From positions 1-44,445 of IMG/VR virus record IMGVR_UViG_3300044611_002685: 44,445 bases of DNA. One strand, given 5' to 3'. The notes beneath the pieces were generated by a model that saw only the letters and a list, made by a program, of their open reading frames with translations, was not told the DNA's origin and ran no database searches. The position numbers and the translations under genes were made by a program. This document shows, in pieces, positions 1,070 to 44,445 of this stretch. This DNA is from a virus. Numbering within the stretch: position 1 is the stretch's first letter; each line of letters opens with the position of its first letter.

Positions 1070-1098
1070 TTGACAGTAACAACCGGTTGGTTTATACT
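1070..1098 (+). promoter_or_regulatory. Sigma70-type promoter with overlapping operator
   Basis: TTGACA (1070-1075), a 17-base spacer and TATACT (1093-1098). The spacer holds the most diverged copy of the shared operator, AACAACC-GGTT-GGTTTAT (1078-1095). An A+T-rich tract lies just upstream. It points at the gene starting at 1181 but first meets the hairpin at 1134-1164. Confidence 0.75.
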
Positions 1099-1133: not shown

Positions 1134-1169
1134 AACACCGCTCAAGACCTGCCAGAGCGGTGTTTTCTT
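1134..1169 (+). terminator. Terminator-like hairpin or attenuator between promoter and gene
   Basis: AACACCGCT (1134-1142) pairs perfectly with AGCGGTGTT (1156-1164), with a 13-base loop. TTTTCTT follows, the form of an intrinsic terminator. It sits about 30 bases after the likely transcription start and before the ATG at 1181, so it would act as an attenuator or end a short RNA. Confidence 0.6.
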
Positions 1170-1180
1170 GCGTTCCCGGT

Positions 1181-1636
1181 ATGAAAAGGCGGCACAAATT
1201 GAAAAAAGAAGAAATAGAAGCCATAGTTAAAAAGCTGAACGAAACCGGCTTTGGTATGGAAATGTTCTGGGCGGACGGCTTCTACCAAGATCGCACCGGT
1301 AACCAAGCGCTGCTGCACGTTGCCCGGGTAGACGAAGGCTTGGAAATGGCGTGGATTACCTTGTTTGAGGTTGGTTACGATCAAGAATGGCGATGCGTTC
1401 ATTTTATCCACGCGGTTAAAGTAATGCCCCTGGGCGACACCGGCATAAGTATAGTAAACCCAAAAGGCACGCAGTTTGATTTTAAAGCGCTGGACGAAAC
1501 CGATATTTTAGCTATTGCTGATTGGAATATATGGCAGCAATACCGCCGCGATAATAAAAATCGCTTTGATAGTATAGACAATGAATATATTCAGCAAGGC
1601 ATAAAATACGCAATAAATTGGAAACCTAAAGAATAA
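1181..1636 (+). CDS. Hypothetical protein, lone plus-strand gene in the head module
   Basis: A protein of 151 residues from ATG 1181. A GTG at 1160 would add seven residues but lies inside the hairpin stem. No good ribosome site precedes either start. The N-terminus is basic and helical (KRRHKLKKEEIEAIVKKL), followed by an acidic, aromatic-rich body (FWADGFYQD, LADWN-like segments). I recognise no family. The gene has its own operator-controlled promoter and runs against the flanking virion genes; its stop is one base from the stop of the minor head protein gene. This is the arrangement of an inserted, separately regulated accessory gene. Function unknown; the coding call rests on a long open frame with phage-like composition. 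Confidence 0.6.
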   Translation: MKRRHKLKKEEIEAIVKKLNETGFGMEMFWADGFYQDRTGNQALLHVARVDEGLEMAWITLFEVGYDQEWRCVHFIHAVKVMPLGDTGISIVNPKGTQFDFKALDETDILAIADWNIWQQYRRDNKNRFDSIDNEYIQQGIKYAINWKPKE

Positions 1637-1637
1637 G

Positions 1638-4600
1638 TTACCTTCTGTCGGTCGGGCATTTTACAATATCCTTTACCCATCGCCCGTCCGGCAGTTTTTC
1701 TATTCCATACTTTTTAAATACTGCAATAATTTCTTCTTTTGCTTCTTGGCTGCTGGCTTTAATTTTATCGATATTATCTACCATAGAAACCGAATGTTTG
1801 AATATGGTTTCATTATGCCCCGCGTCCGCTGCGCAGTCATTCCACCCAGCATAATCGCTGCGCCGCTTACGGGTAACAAAGTCTTCTGTACAGCGTCCGA
1901 ACTCGTCGCCTTCGTATGAAATAGCGTCCATCCGCTTCAGTAATTTCTTTTTGAAATAAAACCCTTTTGAAGCTTCTGCTGGCATTCCGAACTTCCGGAT
2001 CCGGGTAAAGAAATAGCTGGCGCCGCCGGTACCGCAGTCTGGCACCGGCGACATACCGCCCACCGGCACCCCGATGCGCATTTTCTCAACGGTACTTACA
2101 AAGTTACCGTTGTTTTTCAAAATCATATCCACAAGCTCAGCCAGATCGCTTTCATCGGTTGCTGAGTGATATAATGAATAACCAGCCATTTCATAATCAA
2201 ATTGATCGTCGGGCATATCAAATCGTATAAATTCTCGGTGCCCACCACCCACACGTGGATCCAAATGCCCGTATTTATACTGCCCCGCGGGGTTATAATC
2301 GGGTAATTTAGTTACGTCCGCAACCCCTAATTTGCTATTCCAATACCCACGCATCTCGTCGATCATTTCGCTATTGGTGGCGCCGCGGGCTTCCAGGCGT
2401 GCCATCATTTGTACATAAGCGGTTTCAATATGATCCTTGGTTAAATAAGCCTGCTTATGCAAATATTGCAATTCCATATCTTCCATAGAAGCGTGCACCG
2501 CGGGGATTCCCATTTCGTCCATCTTCGCCAGCGCCTTTTGCATAATATCGTGCGATATTTCACCTTCAACACGCATTTCAAACTTACCGCTTAACGCATA
2601 CATACGGCTACGATCCATATTATCGGACACCCACGGTTTGTATACAACGGAAACCCCGTCCCCCATATCTATAGAATACTGCCAGCCTTCGGCTGCGCTT
2701 TCACCGCCGCTTGCGTGTCTTAGTATTTTTCGAATAGTTACGCCTTCCGTTTTTACATAACTTTGTCCGTTTTCTGATTTCTTTTCATCTAATGTAAACT
2801 TAGATTGTTTTACTTGATATCGCCCGCCGCCGCTATAAACTGCCCGTCCTTCATATTGAATAAAGTTTGGCATTCTATCTTTGCTGGCAATAGAAATCCG
2901 ATGGGAAAGTTCATCGATAACTTCCAAATATTCTTTTGCCATTTTTACTAAATTATCATCGCCAGGCAAGCCCGATCGAACGATCTGGGAAAGTGCGCTG
3001 CGGTGCCTGAATGCTTCGTCAAACCGGGTTGTATTAAATCTTTGCTCTTCCCGGTTTGCATTAAAGTGGCGCACAGCGTACATTATATCCTCATAAAATA
3101 CGTCCCCGGGCAATGCACCACCAGCGAACGTTTCACCAGCCATATTTCGCTGCATGAAATCCATTAATCCCCGATCATGATCCGGGCGTATTTTCAGATC
3201 GAACACCGTTGTGGGCTTTCGCGTGCGTGCGGTGCCTTTTGTGAATTCGGTATAAATTAATAGATCCTGATCCTCAACCACATTGGTATCAAATGGGATC
3301 GACTTACCTTGCGATCCCAATTTCTTAATATCGCTTATATATGGATCCCATATATTGTCCGGCGCCGCCTTCGCCACCTTCGCAGTTTTTACTTTTTTCA
3401 AGCTTTCAAAGGTAAAGTCCTCATCATTTAAAACGTCCTTATAAAACTTTTCAAAATCGGTGCGTAAACCATTTTTACGATCCAGCGCTTGTTCATAAAA
3501 TGTATTAAGTTCCGAGCCGCTTCTATACTTACTTTTTGCAAAATCTGAAATTAAATTTAAATACTGCTCGTCACTAACCGCTTCGATCTTTTCTATTGCC
3601 TTTAACGTTTCAAGCGGATCCACCTTTATCGTGCCCCGCTTTACCGCAGCGAATAATTCATTGTGCAGCGTCTGTGAATGATTTGCCCGATAAGTTATAT
3701 CCAATTTATCATTTGGAAAAAATTTAAAAGTCTGCGCCAGATCGATCTCTACCACGCGCCCGTTTGCCATACGCAGAAAGTTCCCCGCGTGCCCGTCATG
3801 GTTGGAAATTAGCCAATCCACCACATGGTGCTGCTGGATTTGTTTTATTTCTTCAACTGGGATATCAGCCAGATCAATATCATAATAATTTATTTTATCC
3901 TTCAAGCCCATCTTCATTCGCTGGATAGACCCCAATTTACCGCCCAGGGTTATTTCGCGAATTTCTACCGCGTCCGGATCAAGCAGGCGGCTTACTTTAT
4001 ACGTCATCTCGTCGGCAAGCGATAAGAAATCACGATCCACCGGCTTGAATAACCACCGGTCGCCGTTGATATCGGAATAAATATATTTTTCGTGCGCTCC
4101 ACCAAGGCTCCGGGCGTCCCCTACCAGATCAAACCAATCGTCGGGGTTGGGTTTTACATTAGCGATCCACGCTTCGTCCAGCGCCTTAAAATCGGCGACG
4201 GTAGATGATAATACCGCGGACGTCGGTGTCGGTACAACGGGCGTGTAACCGGGCACGTTTATAGAAATAACCGGGTTGGGATCCACCGATACATTTACAG
4301 GCGCCGCGGCGGTTTTGGCTTTCGCAGCCGCCTTCGCATTATCGGAATAACCCGCCACCTTCGCCGCCAGCCCGTTTGTTACCGTTTCAATTTTAGCCGG
4401 ATCCGTTTCTGACATTAACGTAATCAGGTCGTCTTTCGAAGCGAAAGCCCAGTTCTTTATTTGATTATCCTTGGCAAATTTCTTAAGATCGGTAACTTTC
4501 ATCGCCGATAACTTCGCCTGGTAAGCGGCTTTTTTATTTAATAATAAATTAGAAAAATCCCCAAGCTGCTCGGAAGTTAAGTGAATTGAATTATTTAATA

Positions 4601-6572
4601 TGGCATTACTGGATTCTTTAAAACTATCCAATAGTAATTTATACTGCCCGTAATTATTTGTATATTCCAAAAGGTCAATTATTGTCTCAAATTTTGTTAT
4701 AGTAGAATTTACCGCGTGAAGCGCCGCAGTATTAGCCGCAGCAATTGCCGCTTCTTCTGCTGCCTTAGCCGCCGCTTGCGTTGCTGCCGCCGCGTGCTTG
4801 GCATTGCTGGCATAACCCGCCACTTTAGCCGCCAGCGCTTCAGCCACATTATCTAAGGTTACAGGTGAAACCTCAGACATCAGCGTAATTAAATCGTTCT
4901 TTGACGCGAATGCCCAGTTTTTTATTTTCTTTTCTTTTGCGATCGCTTTCAGATCCGACATTTTCATGCCTTCAAGCTGGCTCTTGAATGCCATTTTTTG
5001 ATCGAATAAATTCTTAACCGCAGCTTGGTATTCATCGCTGGACGGGTGCAGGTTATTTTCCATCGCCTTTTTCGCAGCCAGGTAAGATTCCTTAAACGAC
5101 ATATAATCGCTTGCCGGTACCAACGGCACCGCGGGTATTACGGGCGCAGCGGGCACGTGTGGCGTCGGTGGCGGCAAAGTGGGCGGGTGGTACCCACCGG
5201 GTGGCAAATCGCCGTTTAAATAGGGATTTCGGTTAAGTACTACACCGCCACCGGGCTTCTTAGCCGCGTCGGTTATCGCCCGTTGCTGCGTGGGCGTTAC
5301 CGCGGTGCGTTGCTTCAGGTAATTCGGGGTTGCCATAAACTTGCGGGTTTGCACGTCCATCGCTTGGTTGTAAGGCAAATTCGGATCCGCCAGCATTTTT
5401 TCAGTTGCTGCCAGGCGCCGTTTTTCTATCCCGGCATAACGAAAGTTGCTGCCACGCAGATCCTTTAGCGGTACCGGGTTACCTTCGGGATCCTTTGCCG
5501 TCTTTTTAAAGCGCTCCCATTCTGCCTCTTTGGAAAACCCCTGCCGGGAAGCCTGCGCAAGTTCGGGGTGGTTATCACGCATCCACGCATATCGATCCCG
5601 ATCCGACATATTGATCTCGGCTTTTGTTAAAGTTGGGTATGAATCCCCAGGCGCCAATATTTCTAAAATTGCCGGGCTTATGCTGTGCATACAATGTGGG
5701 TGGAACGGAACGTCCCGGTTTAACCGCGGATATCCTTTGGCTTCGCCTTCGGTATCAAATGCAAAGACTTTGCCTTCATACATTTTACAAATAAAACACA
5801 AGGTTCCGTGGCTGCTTACTTTGTAAACGTGCTGCCCACATTGCATTAATTTGTTAGCGCTGCCTTCATTTATAGATCGCATCATACCGGTCTGGGCAGC
5901 CATTCTACCATATCGGTGCAAACTCCATTCCCGTCCGGATCGATCTACCATTCCCAGCGCCTTATCCACGCCCGCAGCCATTTGTTGCAACGGCTGCCCA
6001 CCACGTAACCTTTCTATTGCCCCGGTTCGCATTGCCCGGGCGACTTCATCGGATCCTAATCCCAACCCCAACCCGCGGGCGACTTCCTTACCGCCCAGGA
6101 CGCGAAGGTAATCATCGGCTTGGCGAAGTATTGACGTCTTGCCGTCCGGTGTAGGAATGATCCCCAGGAATTGTGCGTGCAGCCCGGCGATATCGGAAGC
6201 AAGCGCGTCTATCGCTTCTTTATTAATTCGGTTCCAGGTATTATTATCGCCTTGCTGTATATGGTAGGTGCCCGCCTGCGCCTTTAGTTCTGCCTGGGCG
6301 TTATCACCGCCCCATTGCGCAGCCAGCGGCAGCGTGGCGCCTTCCCAGGTTTGGAAGTGCACCTGTAAATCGGTAAGTTTGCTTTCTACCTGCGCCAGAA
6401 GATTTGCGGAGCGGCGTAAATTCCAATTCCCCGCTATTGCTTCCTGGGTGGCTCCCATAAGTTGCTGGCGAAGTTCTGCGTCAAGGTCAAGGTAGATCTG
6501 CGACATTGCCTTGGCTTTCTGCTCCACCCCAAATGGTGAAGGCGGGATATTTGGTAAGGTTGGTGCAGGCAT
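1638..6572 (-). CDS. Minor head (MuF/GP2-like) protein fused to a kinase-like domain and a large C-terminal region
   Basis: A 1,644-residue protein from ATG 6572; the frame is open further upstream but that part looks non-coding. Residues 1-330 resemble phage minor capsid proteins of the MuF/GP2 group, with a metal-site-like cluster (CFICKMYEGK near 257, FHPHCMHS near 291). A Pro-rich linker follows. Two SAP/HeH-like helical repeats (LK.IAK..KIKNWAFASK) lie near 535-565 and 690-720, separated by an Ala-rich stretch. About residues 820-1000 look like a HipA/PI4-kinase-like fold: GGAHEKYIY, WLFKP (lysine), catalytic-loop-like NHDGHAGNF near 925 and EIDLAQTF near 944. The last 500 residues (with GTGGASYFFTR near 1513) are unassigned. 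MuF proteins enter the capsid and can be ejected, so the kinase-like part may reach the host; that is inference. Confidence 0.75.
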   Translation of the reverse strand: MPAPTLPNIPPSPFGVEQKAKAMSQIYLDLDAELRQQLMGATQEAIAGNWNLRRSANLLAQVESKLTDLQVHFQTWEGATLPLAAQWGGDNAQAELKAQAGTYHIQQGDNNTWNRINKEAIDALASDIAGLHAQFLGIIPTPDGKTSILRQADDYLRVLGGKEVARGLGLGLGSDEVARAMRTGAIERLRGGQPLQQMAAGVDKALGMVDRSGREWSLHRYGRMAAQTGMMRSINEGSANKLMQCGQHVYKVSSHGTLCFICKMYEGKVFAFDTEGEAKGYPRLNRDVPFHPHCMHSISPAILEILAPGDSYPTLTKAEINMSDRDRYAWMRDNHPELAQASRQGFSKEAEWERFKKTAKDPEGNPVPLKDLRGSNFRYAGIEKRRLAATEKMLADPNLPYNQAMDVQTRKFMATPNYLKQRTAVTPTQQRAITDAAKKPGGGVVLNRNPYLNGDLPPGGYHPPTLPPPTPHVPAAPVIPAVPLVPASDYMSFKESYLAAKKAMENNLHPSSDEYQAAVKNLFDQKMAFKSQLEGMKMSDLKAIAKEKKIKNWAFASKNDLITLMSEVSPVTLDNVAEALAAKVAGYASNAKHAAAATQAAAKAAEEAAIAAANTAALHAVNSTITKFETIIDLLEYTNNYGQYKLLLDSFKESSNAILNNSIHLTSEQLGDFSNLLLNKKAAYQAKLSAMKVTDLKKFAKDNQIKNWAFASKDDLITLMSETDPAKIETVTNGLAAKVAGYSDNAKAAAKAKTAAAPVNVSVDPNPVISINVPGYTPVVPTPTSAVLSSTVADFKALDEAWIANVKPNPDDWFDLVGDARSLGGAHEKYIYSDINGDRWLFKPVDRDFLSLADEMTYKVSRLLDPDAVEIREITLGGKLGSIQRMKMGLKDKINYYDIDLADIPVEEIKQIQQHHVVDWLISNHDGHAGNFLRMANGRVVEIDLAQTFKFFPNDKLDITYRANHSQTLHNELFAAVKRGTIKVDPLETLKAIEKIEAVSDEQYLNLISDFAKSKYRSGSELNTFYEQALDRKNGLRTDFEKFYKDVLNDEDFTFESLKKVKTAKVAKAAPDNIWDPYISDIKKLGSQGKSIPFDTNVVEDQDLLIYTEFTKGTARTRKPTTVFDLKIRPDHDRGLMDFMQRNMAGETFAGGALPGDVFYEDIMYAVRHFNANREEQRFNTTRFDEAFRHRSALSQIVRSGLPGDDNLVKMAKEYLEVIDELSHRISIASKDRMPNFIQYEGRAVYSGGGRYQVKQSKFTLDEKKSENGQSYVKTEGVTIRKILRHASGGESAAEGWQYSIDMGDGVSVVYKPWVSDNMDRSRMYALSGKFEMRVEGEISHDIMQKALAKMDEMGIPAVHASMEDMELQYLHKQAYLTKDHIETAYVQMMARLEARGATNSEMIDEMRGYWNSKLGVADVTKLPDYNPAGQYKYGHLDPRVGGGHREFIRFDMPDDQFDYEMAGYSLYHSATDESDLAELVDMILKNNGNFVSTVEKMRIGVPVGGMSPVPDCGTGGASYFFTRIRKFGMPAEASKGFYFKKKLLKRMDAISYEGDEFGRCTEDFVTRKRRSDYAGWNDCAADAGHNETIFKHSVSMVDNIDKIKASSQEAKEEIIAVFKKYGIEKLPDGRWVKDIVKCPTDRR

Positions 6573-6578
6573 GGTTCT

Positions 6579-6584
6579 ATTATA
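6579..6584 (-). promoter_or_regulatory. Possible -10 box placing the transcript start at the minor-head-protein ATG
   Basis: TATAAT on the minus strand ends 6 bases before the ATG at 6572, and no ribosome site precedes that ATG. If used, the mRNA would be leaderless. The region 17 bases upstream (GGCATA) is a poor -35 box, so this is tentative. Confidence 0.3.
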
Positions 6585-6652
6585 CAATATCGGCGCTAAT
6601 TTATGCCAGAAAAATAAATTAAACTTTTTTTTAAAATAGTTGAAAATACCGC

Positions 6653-6681
6653 TTGACAGCATACACCGCCCGGTGTATACT
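6653..6681 (+). promoter_or_regulatory. Sigma70-type promoter with operator for the plus-strand accessory genes
   Basis: TTGACA (6653-6658), 17 bases, TATACT (6676-6681). The spacer and -10 hold ATACACCGCCCGGTGTAT (6661-6678), two 8-base arms around CC. The identical 18-mer occurs at 23068-23085. A T/A-rich tract upstream (6615-6650) may be an UP element. Confidence 0.85.
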
Positions 6682-10891: not shown

Positions 10892-12466
10892 CTAAGGTGG
10901 AAATGCCCCTGCCCCAGCCTGCGCCATTTGCGTGGCAAGTTCTTCTTCTTGCTTCTTTTTAATTCTTCCCAGCTCCGCCTGGATCTGCTCTTCATTCCAA
11001 TCCTGCCTTATATCGCGAAGGTATTGCTCATCGCTTACCATACCGTCCCGCTTCATTGTGCTGCAATTCGATATTACGGTTTCAAGCGCAGGCGGGATCG
11101 CCGGTGGAAAATCGGTGGTAATTTCCGTTTCCCCGGATCCTTCTGTCGGCGCCGTCCCCAGCCCGTTCTTACCGGCATTTAAAAAGGCATCCATACTGCG
11201 GGCGCAGCCAATGATCCATTCGAAAAAGTCTTTATATGGCTGCCGCTTCTGGTTTATAGCGACTTCTGCCGGGTACAGCGCCAGTTTACGGGCTTCCCCG
11301 GACGTTGCTGCCCCATCCATACCTTCAAGGCTGGGCGTGATCGGTGTTAAGGCATAAAAGCGCTGATCAAGGATCTTTATATTTTCAGCAGAAAGGTCAA
11401 GGTTCCCATCCCAATCGGTAATAGTAACCGGCACCTTGTTTTGCCCGTAATCGATCTCCACTTGCATTTGCTCTCGGCGCAGCTTGCCGGACGCCTTGTC
11501 TATGAAACGATCCGGTACCGCAGCGTGGGGAAATCCCACAAAGTTTATAGTACCGCGGCGCCCAGCAGTTAATTCGTTTAATTCGGCTTGCATATACAAA
11601 AGCGAGATCGTATAATCGCTTTCCCCGCGGTTTTTACCAGCCGCATCTACGTTCTGCAGCCGGTACCCGGGAAGATAAGGTGTGACCCACACGTCCGCTG
11701 CGGGCACCGATCCGTCCGGGAATACTTGTGAGATCGGAACTTGCCCGCCCACGTCGTTCATGCTGCCGATAACATTTACTGAAAAGGCGTCCACCGTTAT
11801 AAGTACAATTTGATCGGTTGGCGCCGACTTTGTCTTGATCGCTTCGATCTGGGCATTTATTTCTGCCACACGTGCCGCTAAGACGCCCGGCTTCAATGCT
11901 GCTGTAGATAACCGGTCAGCTATTTCCCGGGCATTTCCCCGTTCATACCGCTCGCACACGCGGTAGTGCATTAAATCGCCATTTGAAGCCGATGCCTTTT
12001 CAGTTTTCCAAAATTGCACCGCTATAGGTTCGGCATCGTCACCAGGTAAATATTCCCAATAAGTGAATTCGCCTTCTTCAACACCCCAGATCTTTAGCTG
12101 CGGGCTCCCGGCGGCTTTGGAAAAATACATTTTGATCGAAGCGTGCCCGGCATAACTCACAACGTTTGGAATTGACGTTACAAGGGTGTCCAGGCGCAGC
12201 CGCTGCACTATATTATCGATCAATTTTTGATCGCTTGCCACAGCGGTTTTTATGCTGGGCATGAAAGGCATTACAAAAGACGAAAATTTGCGTGTATAAC
12301 GCTCGCCCAGCCAGTTTACATCGGTGGGCACGTGCATAAGCCCCTCTACCCGCTCCCCGGCTTTATTAGAAATCAACACCTTGTGCTGACCCATAAATAC
12401 GGATCGCAGAAATTCATGCCGCTGCTTCATTTCTTTGTGCCGATCCGTCCACGTTGCTGTTGCCAT
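10892..12466 (-). CDS. Portal protein
   Basis: 524 residues from ATG 12466, behind AAGGCGG; the longer frame to 12535 overlaps the terminase end. The portal is the dodecameric channel at the capsid vertex through which the terminase pumps DNA. The call rests on position directly after the large terminase, the length, and the overall composition: a charged N-terminus, a mixed alpha/beta body, and a C-terminal helical region rich in E, Q and K (EEQIQAELGRIKKKQEEE) ending in a low-complexity tail. I cannot assign it to a named portal subfamily by eye. Confidence 0.75.
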   Translation of the reverse strand: MATATWTDRHKEMKQRHEFLRSVFMGQHKVLISNKAGERVEGLMHVPTDVNWLGERYTRKFSSFVMPFMPSIKTAVASDQKLIDNIVQRLRLDTLVTSIPNVVSYAGHASIKMYFSKAAGSPQLKIWGVEEGEFTYWEYLPGDDAEPIAVQFWKTEKASASNGDLMHYRVCERYERGNAREIADRLSTAALKPGVLAARVAEINAQIEAIKTKSAPTDQIVLITVDAFSVNVIGSMNDVGGQVPISQVFPDGSVPAADVWVTPYLPGYRLQNVDAAGKNRGESDYTISLLYMQAELNELTAGRRGTINFVGFPHAAVPDRFIDKASGKLRREQMQVEIDYGQNKVPVTITDWDGNLDLSAENIKILDQRFYALTPITPSLEGMDGAATSGEARKLALYPAEVAINQKRQPYKDFFEWIIGCARSMDAFLNAGKNGLGTAPTEGSGETEITTDFPPAIPPALETVISNCSTMKRDGMVSDEQYLRDIRQDWNEEQIQAELGRIKKKQEEELATQMAQAGAGAFPP

Positions 12467-12482
12467 ATTTAAACCGCCTTTA

Positions 12483-13919
12483 TTATTCTGCCCAGCCCGG
12501 GCGGGTGTATGAAATTCCCGGCGTATATTCATCAATGCCGAGTTCGTTATAAGGTAAAACTGCGCTGTCTTCGCCTTCGCGTGGTACCAGGACGGTGTGG
12601 ATCGGGTACCGGATCGCGTCTAAGGCGTGATCATTTTCTTTGATCGGCTTGTCTTCGCCACATTTCTTTGCCCACTTTACGTCCCAAGAATACCCGGGGA
12701 ATTCTTGTATTAACATTTTACACCGTTCATGCACGTGCAGCAAACCTTCGCTTAATAATGAAGAAACGGTGCGGATCCCGTCTACCACGTCGTTAATCGC
12801 GGGCACAACGGGTACAAAGCCCGCTTGTTCTATCGCCAAGCGAAACGAAGCGGCGCTGGGATCTATAAACGCGCCTACCACCCTGGGCCGCCAGACCTGC
12901 CGCATGTTAGCGGGTTGCAGCGATCGCAGTTGTTTAAACCAGCGTTCAATACACCTTTTGAAATCTTCCACGTATTCTCGATCGGTAAGTTGGCGCTGGG
13001 CCTTTTTTGAATCGTAGTAATATTCGTGAAGGATATCCCAGCGGGAGCCTTCCCCGGCTGGTGCCCTGCCGATCAGGTAGATCGCGGTGGGATTCCCGGT
13101 GGCATAGTCGGCCCCGAAGTAATAATTCGTATACGCCAGCTCCCCGTATTTATTGCGTGGCAAGGTCTTATCGCTTATAAGGTGCGTCGCTTCATCCCAC
13201 TGGTCGTAAATAGCGCCCTCAGCGGCCACCCACAGCCCCAGGATCATCCGTTTGTACCATAAGCCGGTAAACATTCGCTTATAGCGATCCTTGGTGCGCT
13301 GCGGCAGCGTGAGGTTGTCGTCCAGGGTAAAGAAAAGGTGCAGAATTTTCTTATCTTCTGCCCTGTCTATATACTCCGTCTTTATCGGGTGGTAAGGCGT
13401 CTCAGGATTGCAGTTCATCCAAATGCGCGCGCGTTCGTGGCTGCAGCGGCCAATTGCCTGCTCCCGAAAGTCATCGTGGCACAGGGCAGCCTCATCAAGA
13501 AAGGCCCCTGCGGCGGTTAAGCCTTGCAAGTAGTCCTGGCTGGCTTCGTTATCGGCGCCAAATAGGTAATAAGTGTTCGGGTAATCCCCGATCCCGCTTA
13601 GTATGAAATTTGATGATCGGTTATAAGTATACGGGATATTATAGAAAGCGAAAATTTGCAGCATATTTGCAATAACGTTTCTTTTTAAGGCGCCCATCGA
13701 TTTCCCGGCAAGGATAAAGTTTTGACCTTGGAATTGGCTGGTAGACCACAGTATAAAGGACGCGATAAAGGCGATCGTCTTTCCCGATCGTATGGATCCG
13801 TCACCGATCACCATATCATATTCATAATAAGGCGATTCGGGAAGCCACCAGGTCATTACCCTTTTTTGTTGATCTGAAAATGGCTGCATATTGAAGCGGG
13901 CGATCATTGGTTTAGCCAT
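12483..13919 (-). CDS. terL: Terminase large subunit
   Basis: 478 residues from ATG 13919, which overlaps the small terminase stop; a GTG at 13943 is less likely. This ATPase-nuclease motor packages DNA. The Walker A-like loop GDGSIRSGKT is at 39-48 and Walker B FLDEA at 140-144, followed by the coupling-motif region (MNCNPETPYHP). The C-terminal nuclease part has acidic residues (GADYATGNP, GAFIDPSAASF, ENDHALDAIRY). The pattern fits the PBSX/T4-like terminase group. It lies between small terminase and portal. Confidence 0.92.
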   Translation of the reverse strand: MAKPMIARFNMQPFSDQQKRVMTWWLPESPYYEYDMVIGDGSIRSGKTIAFIASFILWSTSQFQGQNFILAGKSMGALKRNVIANMLQIFAFYNIPYTYNRSSNFILSGIGDYPNTYYLFGADNEASQDYLQGLTAAGAFLDEAALCHDDFREQAIGRCSHERARIWMNCNPETPYHPIKTEYIDRAEDKKILHLFFTLDDNLTLPQRTKDRYKRMFTGLWYKRMILGLWVAAEGAIYDQWDEATHLISDKTLPRNKYGELAYTNYYFGADYATGNPTAIYLIGRAPAGEGSRWDILHEYYYDSKKAQRQLTDREYVEDFKRCIERWFKQLRSLQPANMRQVWRPRVVGAFIDPSAASFRLAIEQAGFVPVVPAINDVVDGIRTVSSLLSEGLLHVHERCKMLIQEFPGYSWDVKWAKKCGEDKPIKENDHALDAIRYPIHTVLVPREGEDSAVLPYNELGIDEYTPGISYTRPGWAE

Positions 13920-14409
13920 TACTACCGTCCCCACCTTCGCCACGTGTGCCCGTTTCTGGCTGATCTGCCGGGCTGGCGCTCCCGTTTATCAACGGCGCTT
14001 TCCATACGTCGGCAGCGGCGCCTTTTAGCGCGTCTATAAATATTGCAACGCTGGCTTCTTGAAGTTTTTCTTTTTCGTTTTCCCCATAAGGTCGCACCAC
14101 CTGCTCTTCTATCATGCCCGACATTTTCAGTAGTAATTCTGCGTGCTTGAAGGAGCCTGCCTTGGCTTGTTTTACGCAGGCATTTATAACGGGCGCCACC
14201 GCTTGCTTTGTTATATTGTAACTTTCTTCTTTGTATTCTTTAAGGAAAATTTCATTATGAAAGGCTTTATAGTATGCCTTGCGGTCTATACACAAATCCT
14301 TGCATATTTGCACGACGGATTTGAAACGGTTGTCCGCGTCCAGCAGGTGATTTAACAGCCGTTTTTCGATAATAGTTAAGCCTTTTTTTACTGTTGGTTT
14401 TCTGCCCAT
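13912..14409 (-). CDS. terS: Terminase small subunit, phBC6A51-like
   Basis: 165 residues from ATG 14409, behind AAAGGAT. It recognises phage DNA and loads the large subunit. Residues 10-60 form a helix-turn-helix (LLDADNRFKSVVQICKDLCIDRKAYYKAFHN), as in phBC6A51-type small terminases. The C-terminus is disordered and Gly-rich. Its last codons overlap the start of terL, so the two are coupled. Confidence 0.8.
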   Translation of the reverse strand: MGRKPTVKKGLTIIEKRLLNHLLDADNRFKSVVQICKDLCIDRKAYYKAFHNEIFLKEYKEESYNITKQAVAPVINACVKQAKAGSFKHAELLLKMSGMIEEQVVRPYGENEKEKLQEASVAIFIDALKGAAADVWKAPLINGSASPADQPETGTRGEGGDGSNG

Positions 14410-26832: not shown

Positions 26833-27963
26833 ATGCAGTTCCTATGTAAGAAGGCAGACTTTGCCGCTGCGCTTCGAATCGTGTCCAGATCGGTTGCCAC
26901 CCGATCTACCATGCCAATATTAACGCACGTGTTAATAGAAGTTGACGAAGATCGTGGCACGCTTACCGGTACCGATGGCGAAATGGTATCAAAGCACACT
27001 TTCCAAATGGCTGGTCTAATGCAGACCGGTGGATCCTTAGCGGTACCCGCAAAAATGCTGGGAAGTATTATCGGTGCAATGCCAGAAGGCGATATCGACT
27101 TCTCTACCGCCGCGAACGGGCAGTTCATTTGCCAGCAAGGTAAAATTCGCCAAGGTATAAATTCTATTGCTGGCGATAATTTTCCAGCTAATGCTTTTGA
27201 TTTTAAAGCGGACAGCCAATTTGAAATTGATATTGCCGAATTACAGCGCTTACTGAAATTTAGCATTTACTCCGCGTCCAGCGACGCCAGCCGCCCGATT
27301 CTGGACGGTATAAATTTCCAGGTATCGGGAAACACTATCGCTGCAGCCGCCACCGATACCCACCGGCTTGCCGTTTCCCAAGGCGAAATTAAATCCATAT
27401 CCGACAATATAACAAATATGGATTTTACCATGCCCCGACGCCTGGGCGATGAAATTCTACAAATATCGCTTACCGGTACCGCGACGGTTTTAATTAACGA
27501 TCGCGTTATACAAATTATCGCCGGGAATACCGAGTTAACCGCCCGCCTTAATGATGGGAAATATCCACCATATAAGCGCCTGCTGCCCGATCTAACTAAT
27601 ATGAATACGTCCTGGGCAATAAACGTGGACGACTTTTCTGCGGCGCTGCGCCGGGCGGATATTATTTCTTCAACACTAAATAACAAGGTTGGGTTGCGAA
27701 TAACCGAAGACGGATCCGGGCTTGTTATCCATACTTCATCGCATGAATTCGGATATTCTGAAGAAGAAATACCGGTTACGTCCACCGGGCTTTCAATGGC
27801 AGTATATGCAAACGCGAAATTCTTCTTGGATATTTTAACTTGCTATAATGGTGGGGAAGTTAAAATTTCACTAAACGCGCCTTTGCAGCCGCTTATATTA
27901 ACCTTTCCCGGGGTGGACGGTAATATAAACTTGATTTCTCCGATGGATTCAACCGGCGTATAA
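26833..27963 (+). CDS. dnaN: Sliding clamp (DNA polymerase III beta subunit)
   Basis: 376 residues from ATG 26833, behind GAGGTG. Full-length relative of the bacterial beta clamp, with three repeated domains: KADFAAALRIVSRSVATRST...LTHVLIEV at the start, ASSDASRPILDGI at about 153-165, DTHRLAVSQGEI near 180, and the C-terminal FLDILTCYNGGEVKI and NLISPMDST. It forms the ring that holds polymerase on DNA. No DNA polymerase gene is visible in the genome, so it probably serves a host polymerase or the PrimPol. Expressed rightward from the operator promoter. Confidence 0.92.
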   Translation: MQFLCKKADFAAALRIVSRSVATRSTMPILTHVLIEVDEDRGTLTGTDGEMVSKHTFQMAGLMQTGGSLAVPAKMLGSIIGAMPEGDIDFSTAANGQFICQQGKIRQGINSIAGDNFPANAFDFKADSQFEIDIAELQRLLKFSIYSASSDASRPILDGINFQVSGNTIAAAATDTHRLAVSQGEIKSISDNITNMDFTMPRRLGDEILQISLTGTATVLINDRVIQIIAGNTELTARLNDGKYPPYKRLLPDLTNMNTSWAINVDDFSAALRRADIISSTLNNKVGLRITEDGSGLVIHTSSHEFGYSEEEIPVTSTGLSMAVYANAKFFLDILTCYNGGEVKISLNAPLQPLILTFPGVDGNINLISPMDSTGV

Positions 27964-29532: not shown

Positions 29533-31797
29533 TTAAAGTGAACGCACCGGTAAGCAATAAACCGGTGAATATGGTGCCGACATTGATGAGTTTTGGGGAG
29601 CGCCGTCGGTTGCGGATATCGCCCAGGCATATCCCCCATAATTGGCATAAGCGGTGCTTGTCCAATAGACGCTTTGTAAGTTGGTGGCATAAGCCGAACT
29701 TATCATTGCCCCGGTTAATGAATAATCCATCAGCGCGATAAGTTCGTATAAATTTGGCATTCGCCAATCTGAAAACCCACCATAATTCAAATCGTTACAT
29801 AATGAAATAAATTCATACCAATTATAAGAAGCCGGGGTGGTTATATAATACCCGTCCGCCAGCCAAGGCGTGGGGATCCATTTGTCCGTCCAGGCGGCTC
29901 CCCAATATGGCTCGGTGGATCCACCGGACGTATGGGAGCTTATGCAAATAACCGCTTTCGGGAGCCGCTTCCAATAAATCTGCCAATCGGCGCCCGCTAT
30001 TGGTTCATTGCTGCTGTCTGCGGTATGATCATAAATGCATTCGAAGTTATCATACGATGTGCCGTTATAGCGCGACACGCGGTTCCCCACGACGTAATTT
30101 GTATATGAAGACCAATTCTGGACGCTTATATTTTCCCAAAAAGTCTGCCAATCGTAAGCCATACCGGGATAATGGTTAGAAGATCGGTGATCCGCGGTGC
30201 AAATATAAAAATTATAATCGGGAGCGTACACGACGTCGTCGGTTATAAAATCAATTTCATTTTGCCACGTTATTGTAGTAATAATTTCTTCCCAAGCGGT
30301 TGTCCAATCCATCGACATACCGGGTTCATAATTTGACGAATAGTGCGCCGATTTACAGCGATAAATTCTATAATGATCGTATAACCACATGGAAGCTAAA
30401 TCGCCTATTGTATAATTAGTGCTACCTTGCCAACTGGTCATAACTTCCCAATAAGTCTGCCAATTACCGCCCGTTTCCGGTTCGTCGTTTGTTGTTGAAG
30501 TGTGCGCCAAAATACATTTATACGCGTTTCCCGTCCAATAATTATTTACCGCGTCGCCCGCAACAAATGCAATACCTGGATTCCAATAACCTGTAATGTA
30601 ATCCCACTTATCTTCCCAATACATAGAATAAAGTGGCATATAATTATCGGCAGTGTGTGCCAAAATACAATTATATAATTTTCCGTTATGGCTTGCTTTA
30701 TCATTAACTAAAAAATTAATATAATTACTCCACGAAATAGATGGGTATAAATCCCAAACGTCCTCCCATTCCGATCCGGTAAGACCAGGCTGGTGTTCCG
30801 ATGAAAAGTGCGCCAATTTACATTTATAACGTCCCGATCCGCTCGGCGACACCATATCATTCAATAAGTAATCGGTATCTTGCTGCCAATAAACACCGCC
30901 GGATCCAACGTCGGCATTTGCCACCGCACCGCGGCTGTAATCGTGCGCTGCGCCGTCCCACGCGGCTCCGCCGGTAAGCGTCCCGCTATTTTCGCCTGGG
31001 AAAATTTGACACACGTCTTTCGGAAACATTATCCCCACGCCCGCCGCCGATACTATATTACCCAGCACCGAGAAGCCTTTAGCGGCTCCCATTTGTAGAT
31101 CGCCGTCATCACCGTCCACCACCGACGTGGTTTGCCCGGTAACCGGTAATAAGTTACCGCCGCCGCCACCACCCGGATCATTTGTCCAGCTTACGGTACA
31201 AAACATCTGGCTGCATTTATGCAACGTATTTATAAAGAATTTTATACCAATTTGCAACGCGATAATATCGGCGATCGTCCAGGCTGCATTTGTGAAAGGA
31301 TTTTCAGCCCAGGACGCGGTAAAATCCGCAAAGGACGTGCCGGTTGCGTGCGGGGTGCCTTCGTAAATAGTGCCGCCCGTTTTCAGTATTATCGCTTCGG
31401 CATTAGCAGCCGGTGTAGAATCCGCCGTTCGTGCAGTAATTTCAATACCGCTTATTATGGATCCGGTGGGGATCGCAGCCCCGGTTATTGTATATAAATC
31501 CCAGCGAGTTATTCCCGAATTATCGAATATGTAAGTGGTATCATTTGGGGTTGATTCATTAAGTAAATTCCAATGTGAGCTGGTGGGGTTGGCGATTTGT
31601 TTTATAACGTCGCTTGCCGGACGGAATATGGTGCTGTTACCGCCGCCACCGCCGCCCGTTTCAATACTATCTATTAACGCGGCATAATCGCGAAAAGGCG
31701 TCCCGACGGGAACGTCCACGCCTTTACCTTCTATCGCATCATGAATGGCGACTTTCGTGCCTTCCAAATATACTAATTTCTGCGCTGTCGTTCCCAT
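29533..31797 (-). CDS. Tail fibre/adhesin with CBM-like repeats and Lcl/DUF1566-type tip
   Basis: 754 residues from ATG 31797 (TAATG overlap with the gene upstream). Residues 1-290 look like a fibre shaft and attachment region (Gly-rich). About 300-635 hold six tandem modules and one partial, each with W...Y..GD.V....Y.C...H.S......W...W, similar to carbohydrate-binding modules of the CBM5/12 type. The C-terminal 110 residues (LNYGGFSDWRMPNLYELI, SVYWTSTAYANYGGYAWAI, VYCLPVRSL) match the Lcl/DUF1566 domain. The protein should bind cell-surface glycans and set host range. Confidence 0.8.
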   Translation of the reverse strand: MGTTAQKLVYLEGTKVAIHDAIEGKGVDVPVGTPFRDYAALIDSIETGGGGGGNSTIFRPASDVIKQIANPTSSHWNLLNESTPNDTTYIFDNSGITRWDLYTITGAAIPTGSIISGIEITARTADSTPAANAEAIILKTGGTIYEGTPHATGTSFADFTASWAENPFTNAAWTIADIIALQIGIKFFINTLHKCSQMFCTVSWTNDPGGGGGGNLLPVTGQTTSVVDGDDGDLQMGAAKGFSVLGNIVSAAGVGIMFPKDVCQIFPGENSGTLTGGAAWDGAAHDYSRGAVANADVGSGGVYWQQDTDYLLNDMVSPSGSGRYKCKLAHFSSEHQPGLTGSEWEDVWDLYPSISWSNYINFLVNDKASHNGKLYNCILAHTADNYMPLYSMYWEDKWDYITGYWNPGIAFVAGDAVNNYWTGNAYKCILAHTSTTNDEPETGGNWQTYWEVMTSWQGSTNYTIGDLASMWLYDHYRIYRCKSAHYSSNYEPGMSMDWTTAWEEIITTITWQNEIDFITDDVVYAPDYNFYICTADHRSSNHYPGMAYDWQTFWENISVQNWSSYTNYVVGNRVSRYNGTSYDNFECIYDHTADSSNEPIAGADWQIYWKRLPKAVICISSHTSGGSTEPYWGAAWTDKWIPTPWLADGYYITTPASYNWYEFISLCNDLNYGGFSDWRMPNLYELIALMDYSLTGAMISSAYATNLQSVYWTSTAYANYGGYAWAISATDGAPQNSSMSAPYSPVYCLPVRSL

Positions 31798-43507: not shown

Positions 43508-44445
43508 TTAGTCTCCAACACCCACAACGGTGTCGTATTTAATACCGGTTATTTTTGCGTGCTGGGTTTCAGCACCATATTCCAAGCCGATCTCGCCGTA
43601 AAGCTGAACAGCATCGGAAGCGCCGGTCTTTGCCAAAGGCTCTTCAAAGAAGAAACCCTTGCCCGGGATGTAAAGAATAACCGGCGCCAGCACATTTGCA
43701 GAAACAACGGCTAAGGTGTCCTTCGGCATTGCACGATCCAGCATGATATTAACCTTGCCAAAATCGGTCTCAATGGTTTGCAGATTTACGCCGCCCACGT
43801 TGCGTGTGTCCTCAGTATAATCTTTGTCAGTTACAAAGATCTTGGTAAGCTGGCGCTTTATACCACCGTTGCAAACTAAGGTCGCGGTTTCGCTTTCTTG
43901 CAGTCCACCATTTTCCCAGGCGAGCTGCATTATATCGAGCACCATTAGTTCGGTTAAATACTGCGCCACCGGGGTTTCGTCATCGGAAAGTGCGGAAATG
44001 TGGTTTGTAACAATGGCTTCTAACAAACCGCGGGTTTTTCGTGCGGTACCATTATCGGCAGGCTTCGCATAAGCGCCGCGAATGAAAGTGTAATTCACGT
44101 CGCGTGCCAGTTGCTTCAGCTCCTGCACAATTTGCCAGCTCATTTCGTTCCCCACCGGGTTAGCGGCGGCTGTTGCCAATCCATCGCGCTGTCCAACAGC
44201 GGCTTGCTTCGTATAAGAAACTTCGACTTTCTTTTGGAAAATCTGCACGATGTTAGTAACATTCGAGCGGGTGCGAGCCTGAGCGGTTGGTGCGTTGGCG
44301 CCTTCCAAAACGGCAGGAATTTCCGGATCGCGAAGATCAGAAGTCTGCCATTCGAACTCTTTCTGGTTGGTGGGCTTGCCACCGGTTAACCCACCGATCA
44401 TGGAAAGCAGCGGGGTGTCAGCGGGTGTTATATTAAATAACTGAC
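43508..44445 (-). CDS. Major capsid protein, SU10/DUF5309 type (5' end lies at 179 across the join)
   Basis: Main part of the 329-residue capsid gene; the frame runs in from the contig end, and bases 44319-44445 duplicate 1-127. Full sequence: 179 to 1, then 44318 to 43508. Conserved features include DLRDPEIPAVLEGANAPT, VTNIVQIFQKKVEVSYTKQA, AVGQRDG and ARDVNYTFIRGAY, characteristic of the DUF5309/SU10-like capsid family with the HK97 fold. It forms the icosahedral shell on the scaffold encoded upstream. The stop (43508) is followed by two hairpins. Confidence 0.88.
   Translation of the reverse strand, partial: QLFNITPADTPLLSMIGGLTGGKPTNQKEFEWQTSDLRDPEIPAVLEGANAPTAQARTRSNVTNIVQIFQKKVEVSYTKQAAVGQRDGLATAAANPVGNEMSWQIVQELKQLARDVNYTFIRGAYAKPADNGTARKTRGLLEAIVTNHISALSDDETPVAQYLTELMVLDIMQLAWENGGLQESETATLVCNGGIKRQLTKIFVTDKDYTEDTRNVGGVNLQTIETDFGKVNIMLDRAMPKDTLAVVSANVLAPVILYIPGKGFFFEEPLAKTGASDAVQLYGEIGLEYGAETQHAKITGIKYDTVVGVGD
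44319..44445. repeat. 127-bp direct terminal repeat (copy 2)
   Basis: Identical to bases 1-127. See copy 1: an assembly overlap inside the capsid gene showing circularity. Confidence 0.9.

Follow-up and report, generated by a model that had tools for sequence, protein, structure and literature searches.

The window analysed here, a stretch of 44,445 nucleotides comprising positions 1 to 44,445 of the IMG/VR virus record IMGVR_UViG_3300044611_002685, carries on its minus strand a large gene, complement(1638..6572), which we describe as a candidate effector gene combining a MuF-type minor head domain, a kinase-fold domain and a C-terminal domain resembling ADP-ribosyltransferases (ARTs). The original prediction had placed an open reading frame (ORF) at 1638-6572, which is borne out by ORF and translation, the coding strand being the minus strand. 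The ATG start codon lies at 6572, the stop codon at 1638-1640, and the product has 1644 amino acids (aa). Formally, the ORF reaches to 6824; the extra 84 N-terminal residues appear to be non-coding. Residue numbers below refer to the 1644-aa protein, and P0001 numbering is higher by 84. A TATAAT sequence is found about 7 bases before the ATG (6572-6590), with no evident Shine-Dalgarno site, and the translation start is possibly leaderless.

At the N-terminus (5472..6509, minus strand), the MuF/GP2-like minor head domain proposed earlier was recovered with both Pfam and PHROG, matching Phage_min_cap2 (core 5628-5951; E-value of 4.6e-11) and PHROG 4611, ‘minor head protein’ (E-value of 3.7e-25). 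The same applies to the two proposed SAP/HeH-like repeats: Pfam Rho_N detects two stretches in the protein (E-value of 7.7e-9), and the resulting Rho_N/HeH/SAP-like repeats are located on the minus strand at 4887..4979 and 4404..4520, the second also having weak SAP and PHROG 3281 matches. A family of unknown function, PHROG 6577, spans residues 760-1571 in P0001 numbering (E-value of 1.6e-33). Therefore, the architecture is present in known phage proteins without an assigned function.

Residues about 806-1051 (3420..4157, minus strand) cover a HipA/PI3-PI4K-like kinase domain. The AlphaFold2 model of this region has a predicted local distance difference test (pLDDT) value of 88.5, with about 95-98 across most of the core, and includes C-lobe helices (184-262, pLDDT about 97) after the I-D motif. 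When the model was compared with the PDB using Foldseek, 386 matches were obtained at E<=1e-3; among the matches listed, all were kinases or kinase-holding complexes (RIO1, CtkA of the HipA family, PI3Ks and Ser/Thr kinases), with kinase matches at a probability of 1.00 and a template modelling (TM) score of 0.50 for CtkA. Key residues are Lys843, the acid at 854, Asp926-x-His928, Asp944 and Arg1032. In an alignment of 38 diverse relatives (25-46% identity), no substitution occurs at G40, K58, D141, H143, I158, D159, Q162 or R247 (alignment numbering); residue 854 is acidic (D or E) in 37 of the 38. The lysine, the catalytic Asp and the metal-binding Asp of a kinase are thus present as Lys843, Asp926 and Asp944, without exception in these relatives. 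Scanned one by one with Pfam, the relatives matched HipA_C (30/38), PI3_PI4_kinase (13), Fam20C (11) and ABC1 (5); scores were 12.3-19.1 bits for HipA_C (PF07804), below the curated cut-off of 30.5, and 12.8-15.5 bits for PI3_PI4_kinase (PF00454), below the cut-off of 27.1. Based on the predicted fold, the conserved catalytic residues and the Pfam matches of the relatives, we conclude that the region, as its earlier description as kinase-like had anticipated, adopts a kinase fold; its active site appears to be intact. A plain HipA toxin-antitoxin unit was considered and rejected, as the domain is fused to a head protein and scores below the HipA cut-off.

Searching 50,697 phage genomes with tblastn located the kinase region in the mycobacteriophages McProf, four related prophages, Onyinye, Leopard, Aikoy, Phrappuccino and Settecandela. 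Kinase profile scans retrieved 93 relatives in IMG/VR and 47 in bacterial genomes of GTDB, many of them from Desulfobacterota. A single-sequence PDB search and a single-sequence IMG/VR scan gave no match, being too insensitive, whereas profiles worked; a profile from a two-row alignment (A2) found no loci. Stand-alone kinase versions of 300-350 aa were observed in Patescibacteria (L204, L206 and L207; Magasanikbacteria and Uhrbacteria).

About 500 residues had been left unassigned in the original prediction. They resolve into two conserved regions: a middle alpha/beta region (2625..3377, minus strand; alignment A5 and AlphaFold2 model), which co-occurs with the C-terminal domain and matches no Pfam family, and the C-terminal domain itself (1641..2210, minus strand), for which an ART-like fold is predicted. 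The C-terminal 580 residues form a conserved unit in the candidate effector and its closer relatives, with 174 relatives in IMG/VR and an AlphaFold2 model at pLDDT 88.4. Judged by the 93 and 174 IMG/VR relatives, conservation of the kinase and C-terminal regions is far beyond chance. Within the unit, the last 190 residues are modelled with the strand order of ARTs, and the candidate residues His1469, Tyr1520 and Glu1588, conserved in 42, 41 and 42 of 43 members, respectively, lie on or beside the predicted strands in ART order. Comparing the domain profile with 14 DarT sequences gave a score of 22.6, against 13.0 ± 2.0 (maximum 18.7) for 60 column-shuffled decoys (z about 4.7 over these decoys); the reversed profile reached 13.8. 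Foldseek against viral models found small uncharacterised giant-virus proteins at probabilities of 1.00 and 0.98. The ADPrib_exo_Tox profile scored like decoys against the domain and hhalign gave no signal; hence, the two ART types are not demonstrably related. Pfam DarT (PF14487) did not match even at an E-value of 10, and neither a DarT family match nor a DarG-like macrodomain was found in the window. Taken together, fold prediction and profile score point, with moderate confidence, to a DarT-like (H-Y-E) ART, another fold being possible.

Nearly every protein with the C-terminal unit also carries the kinase. Fused ORFs number 162 for kinase plus C-terminal unit and 25 for kinase plus ADPrib_exo_Tox (redundant counts); several unpaired kinase ORFs are truncated contigs, and in Pseudanabaena phage Pan1 a MuF protein carries the C-terminal unit but no kinase. 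The ADPrib_exo_Tox C-terminus (exo type) occurs in mycobacteriophage proteins and many relatives (Pfam E-values down to 1e-24), often behind an N-terminal Phage_Mu_F or VG15 domain, so that the C-terminal effector domain behind one type of kinase is either ADPrib_exo_Tox or DarT-like. In plasmids of Streptomyces, Kitasatospora and Euzebya, the kinase forms the end of a protein of 900-950 aa and the next gene encodes a separate C-terminal-unit protein, while on a Mycolicibacterium fortuitum plasmid one small gene lies between the two; four plasmids were read gene by gene and the other split pairs are tblastn positions. These plasmids have no recognised head genes. The fused state in phages and the neighbouring genes of the plasmids are independent signs of a functional link. 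Since the kinase tree requires at least four changes between the DarT-like, exo and split types, it indicates that the second enzyme was swapped while the pairing persisted. In summary, the kinase appears to be almost always coupled to an ART or ART-like domain, either in the same protein or in the next gene.

Further arrangements were observed among these relatives. In Phrappuccino gp195 (L004 5929-12021; 2030 aa, annotated as hypothetical), which has no Pfam matches to ADPrib_exo_Tox, Phage_Mu_F or VG15, the kinase precedes a tandem series of three or more R-S-E-like ART motifs, as judged by eye. A relative of 2672 aa (L063 4112-12127) has a NUDIX domain before kinase and C-terminal unit, which would fit ADP-ribose biology. 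Giant actinobacterial plasmids (L209-L212) keep the order of a DUF4417 or Gp37/Gp68-like gene, a small gene, the kinase gene and the C-terminal-unit gene.

Convergent with the candidate effector gene lies an immunity-like partner gene of 151 aa (1181..1636, plus strand), identified by a profile built without its sequence (E-value of 1.5e-11), by BLAST (E-value of 1.7e-10) and by alignment. Most relatives have a gene of 156-198 aa after the kinase/DarT-like gene, often with a 4-bp overlap, and the partner gene lies within 300 bp downstream in most of them. When only non-redundant loci with enough downstream sequence are counted, this partner family occurs in 25 of 31 DarT-like loci and a different small family in 10 of 17 exo loci, with no cross-pairs at all. 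Neither family has a Pfam match above cut-off, and searches next to the plasmid pairs and in phage Pan1 revealed no partner homologue. By analogy, this enzyme-specific pairing resembles immunity proteins of MuF toxin systems such as Apk2/IapK (PMC12226406).

Ahead of the partner gene, a near-consensus sigma-70 promoter, TTGACA-17-TATACT, was found by motif match (1070..1098, plus strand). A second one with the same consensus (6653..6681, plus strand) lies just upstream of the candidate effector gene and reads away from it into accessory genes; two such motifs in the window compare with 0.01 expected by chance. Both promoters bracket the candidate effector gene and point rightward; the core between their hexamers is palindrome-like (AACCGGTT; ACACCGCCCGGTGT), which looks as if they were operator-controlled. 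Between the first promoter and the partner ATG, a strong hairpin with a 10-bp stem (1134..1164, plus strand; −15.9 kcal/mol) precedes TTTTCTT and is attenuator- or terminator-like.

A direct terminal repeat of 127 bp (1-127 = 44319-44445, in window and virus record) was detected; consequently, the window is most likely a whole genome, circularly permuted and 44,318 bp long. The minus-strand order is terminase small subunit (13912-14409), terminase large subunit (12483..13943; PHROG 2, E-value of 2.7e-45), portal protein (10892..12535; PHROG 64, E-value of 4.9e-8), a plus-strand accessory block, the candidate effector gene, a scaffold-like gene of 215 aa inferred from its position (216-863) and the major head protein (43508..44445; PHROG 1328, E-value of 2.5e-98), which runs on across the terminal repeat. 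The candidate effector gene thus has the position typical of MuF genes. Because it lies among head genes and has a MuF-type N-terminus, carriage of its product in the capsid is likely. Elsewhere in the window, a phage-encoded DNA polymerase III beta clamp (26833-27963, plus strand), so annotated in relatives from Rhizobium phages, and a tail-fibre-like protein (29533-31797, minus strand) whose repeated W..Y..GD-V...Y.C...H motifs are similar to carbohydrate-binding modules were noted. An Rfam search gave no match.

In a positive-controlled comparison, the flanks of the other loci (up to 10 kb, often short contigs) contained no relatives of the terminase, portal, capsid, scaffold or tape-measure proteins of the window. 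Over their C-terminal 1100 aa, the relatives share about 36% identity. This similarity, next to unrelated head proteins, indicates that the module moves between phages with unrelated head genes.

The domain order, the predicted kinase fold with intact catalytic residues, the pairing with an ART or ART-like domain, the type-specific partner and the location among head genes are best explained, in our moderately confident view, by a MuF-type, virion-delivered two-enzyme effector (kinase and ART) with a cognate partner. Such an effector would be packaged and ejected, would have both enzyme activities with targets of their own, and its partner would play a dedicated role. The N-terminal domain might dock the protein at the portal inside the procapsid, portal docking being known for SPP1 gp7 (PMC5576092), and the HeH/SAP-like repeats might touch the packaged DNA. 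The protein would then enter the cell together with the DNA, where the kinase would phosphorylate a host target or its own ART, possibly licensing the latter, and the ART would modify a host macromolecule, so that take-over would be favoured or a defence or competitor disabled. In the producing cell, the partner encoded at 1181-1636 would most likely hold newly made effector inactive, and a separate promoter would make its synthesis independent of the late genes.

Several results weigh against this explanation. DarT (7omy) was the sole match listed with a probability >0.5 when Foldseek was run against the PDB, and this match is weak (0.60, E-value of 0.087); the formal hhalign probability for the domain against DarT is only 4%, and hidden Markov models of Pfam ART families matched none of the 43 members of the C-terminal unit. 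The domain could accordingly be some other enzyme or a binding domain, with kinase-ART proteins existing only among the ADPrib_exo_Tox relatives. We consider this rather improbable, since the domain occupies the place of a genuine ART in sister proteins, has the conserved His, Tyr and Glu in ART order, and exceeded all 60 decoys with the DarT profile, whereas the exo ART profile yielded nothing.

With respect to the kinase, the candidate effector alone reaches only sub-threshold Pfam values (HipA_C, E 0.13; PI3_PI4_kinase, E 0.11), and the metal-binding Asn of HipA is either Asn or Gln across the family. The latter variation, at the usual Mg-binding position, would suit a kinase-fold domain that mainly regulates the attached ART, by autophosphorylation or a non-canonical transfer (AMPylation or glutamylation, for instance), much as SidJ is known to control the SidE ARTs, rather than acting on host targets, and so would the near-constant pairing with two ART types in fused or adjacent genes. 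We nevertheless judge such regulation to be distinctly unlikely as the main role: the Lys, the alpha-C acid and both Asp residues are conserved as in active kinases, and the single-domain copies of Patescibacteria have no recognised ART in the protein.

Two further points against a two-enzyme effector with a cognate partner are that some exo-type loci have no recognised partner family and that no integrase, resolvase or repressor (PF00589, PF00239 or HTH_3) was matched in the window; therefore, an immunity role of the partner in a lysogen is unsupported for this phage. A purely structural protein, in which the kinase-like part and the C-terminal domain have degenerated or function in head assembly and the small gene encodes an assembly chaperone, would agree with the position among head genes and with a closely linked, often overlapping partner gene, but is highly improbable given catalytic residues invariant across very diverse proteins, a module present on plasmids without recognised head genes, a cassette moving between phages with unrelated head proteins and a partner type that tracks the C-terminal enzyme.

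The first minutes of an infection are decided by the proteins that a phage injects; with the exception of T4 Alt and a few more, the enzymes among them are, to our knowledge, poorly known. A head-carried kinase constantly coupled to an ART would newly combine two macromolecule-modifying activities. Phage contigs with this combination number well above one hundred; it also occurs in mycobacteriophages that can be cultivated, whose annotation mentions the ART alone. Its function is directly testable thanks to the small partner genes and the split version on plasmids. MuF-ART fusions as such have already been described (PMC9503650), while the openly searchable literature, as far as its text was accessible, contains no HipA/PI3-4K-like kinase between MuF and ART, no DarT-like alternative, no split plasmid pair and no such partner families.

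Compared with known systems, the gene shares with MuF polymorphic toxins (Jamet, 2017, PMC5576092; Apk2, PMC12226406) the MuF-type minor head N-terminus, the C-terminal effector enzyme and the adjacent cognate small gene. The accessible parts of these papers name nucleases, peptidases, ARTs and alarmone synthetases, but no kinase-fold domain between MuF and ART, and tie the toxins to temperate phages, whereas no integrase was found in this window. McProf gp54, prophiFSQJ01-1 gp54 (‘minor capsid and ADP-ribosyltransferase domain fusion’) and Onyinye gp16 share the kinase domain (27-32% identity) and a downstream ART, but differ in having VG15 or another N-terminus, ADPrib_exo_Tox and a different partner gene; their deposited annotation names the ART only and leaves the kinase unannotated. 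With HipA/CtkA and atypical kinases of the PI3/PI4K type, the candidate effector has in common the fold and the catalytic N-H-D-x-H and I-D motifs. It falls below the cut-offs of both HipA_C and PI3_PI4_kinase and, unlike HipA, has no HipA_N by Pfam and is part of a head protein rather than of a HipBA operon. Large, probably injected, phage proteins also house the polyvalent-protein kinases (Iyer, 2017, PMC5512222). These, however, belong to the Ser/Thr/Tyr superfamily and have lost the C-terminal subdomain, whereas the kinase described here is HipA/PI3-4K-like and has its C-lobe helices. T4 Alt shares the theme of a virion-packaged ART ejected with the DNA, but is of the R-S-E type and without such a kinase.

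DarT is the nearest solved fold of the modelled C-terminal domain; DarT itself, a toxin paired with DarG, ADP-ribosylates DNA in phage defence. We tentatively suggest a widespread, previously undescribed system in which a phage-delivered HipA-like kinase and a DarT-like ART would form one machine inside the virion, with dedicated neutralising partners and a split pair on actinobacterial plasmids. If so, phages would have made a weapon out of a DarT-like enzyme, of a kind known from defence against phages.
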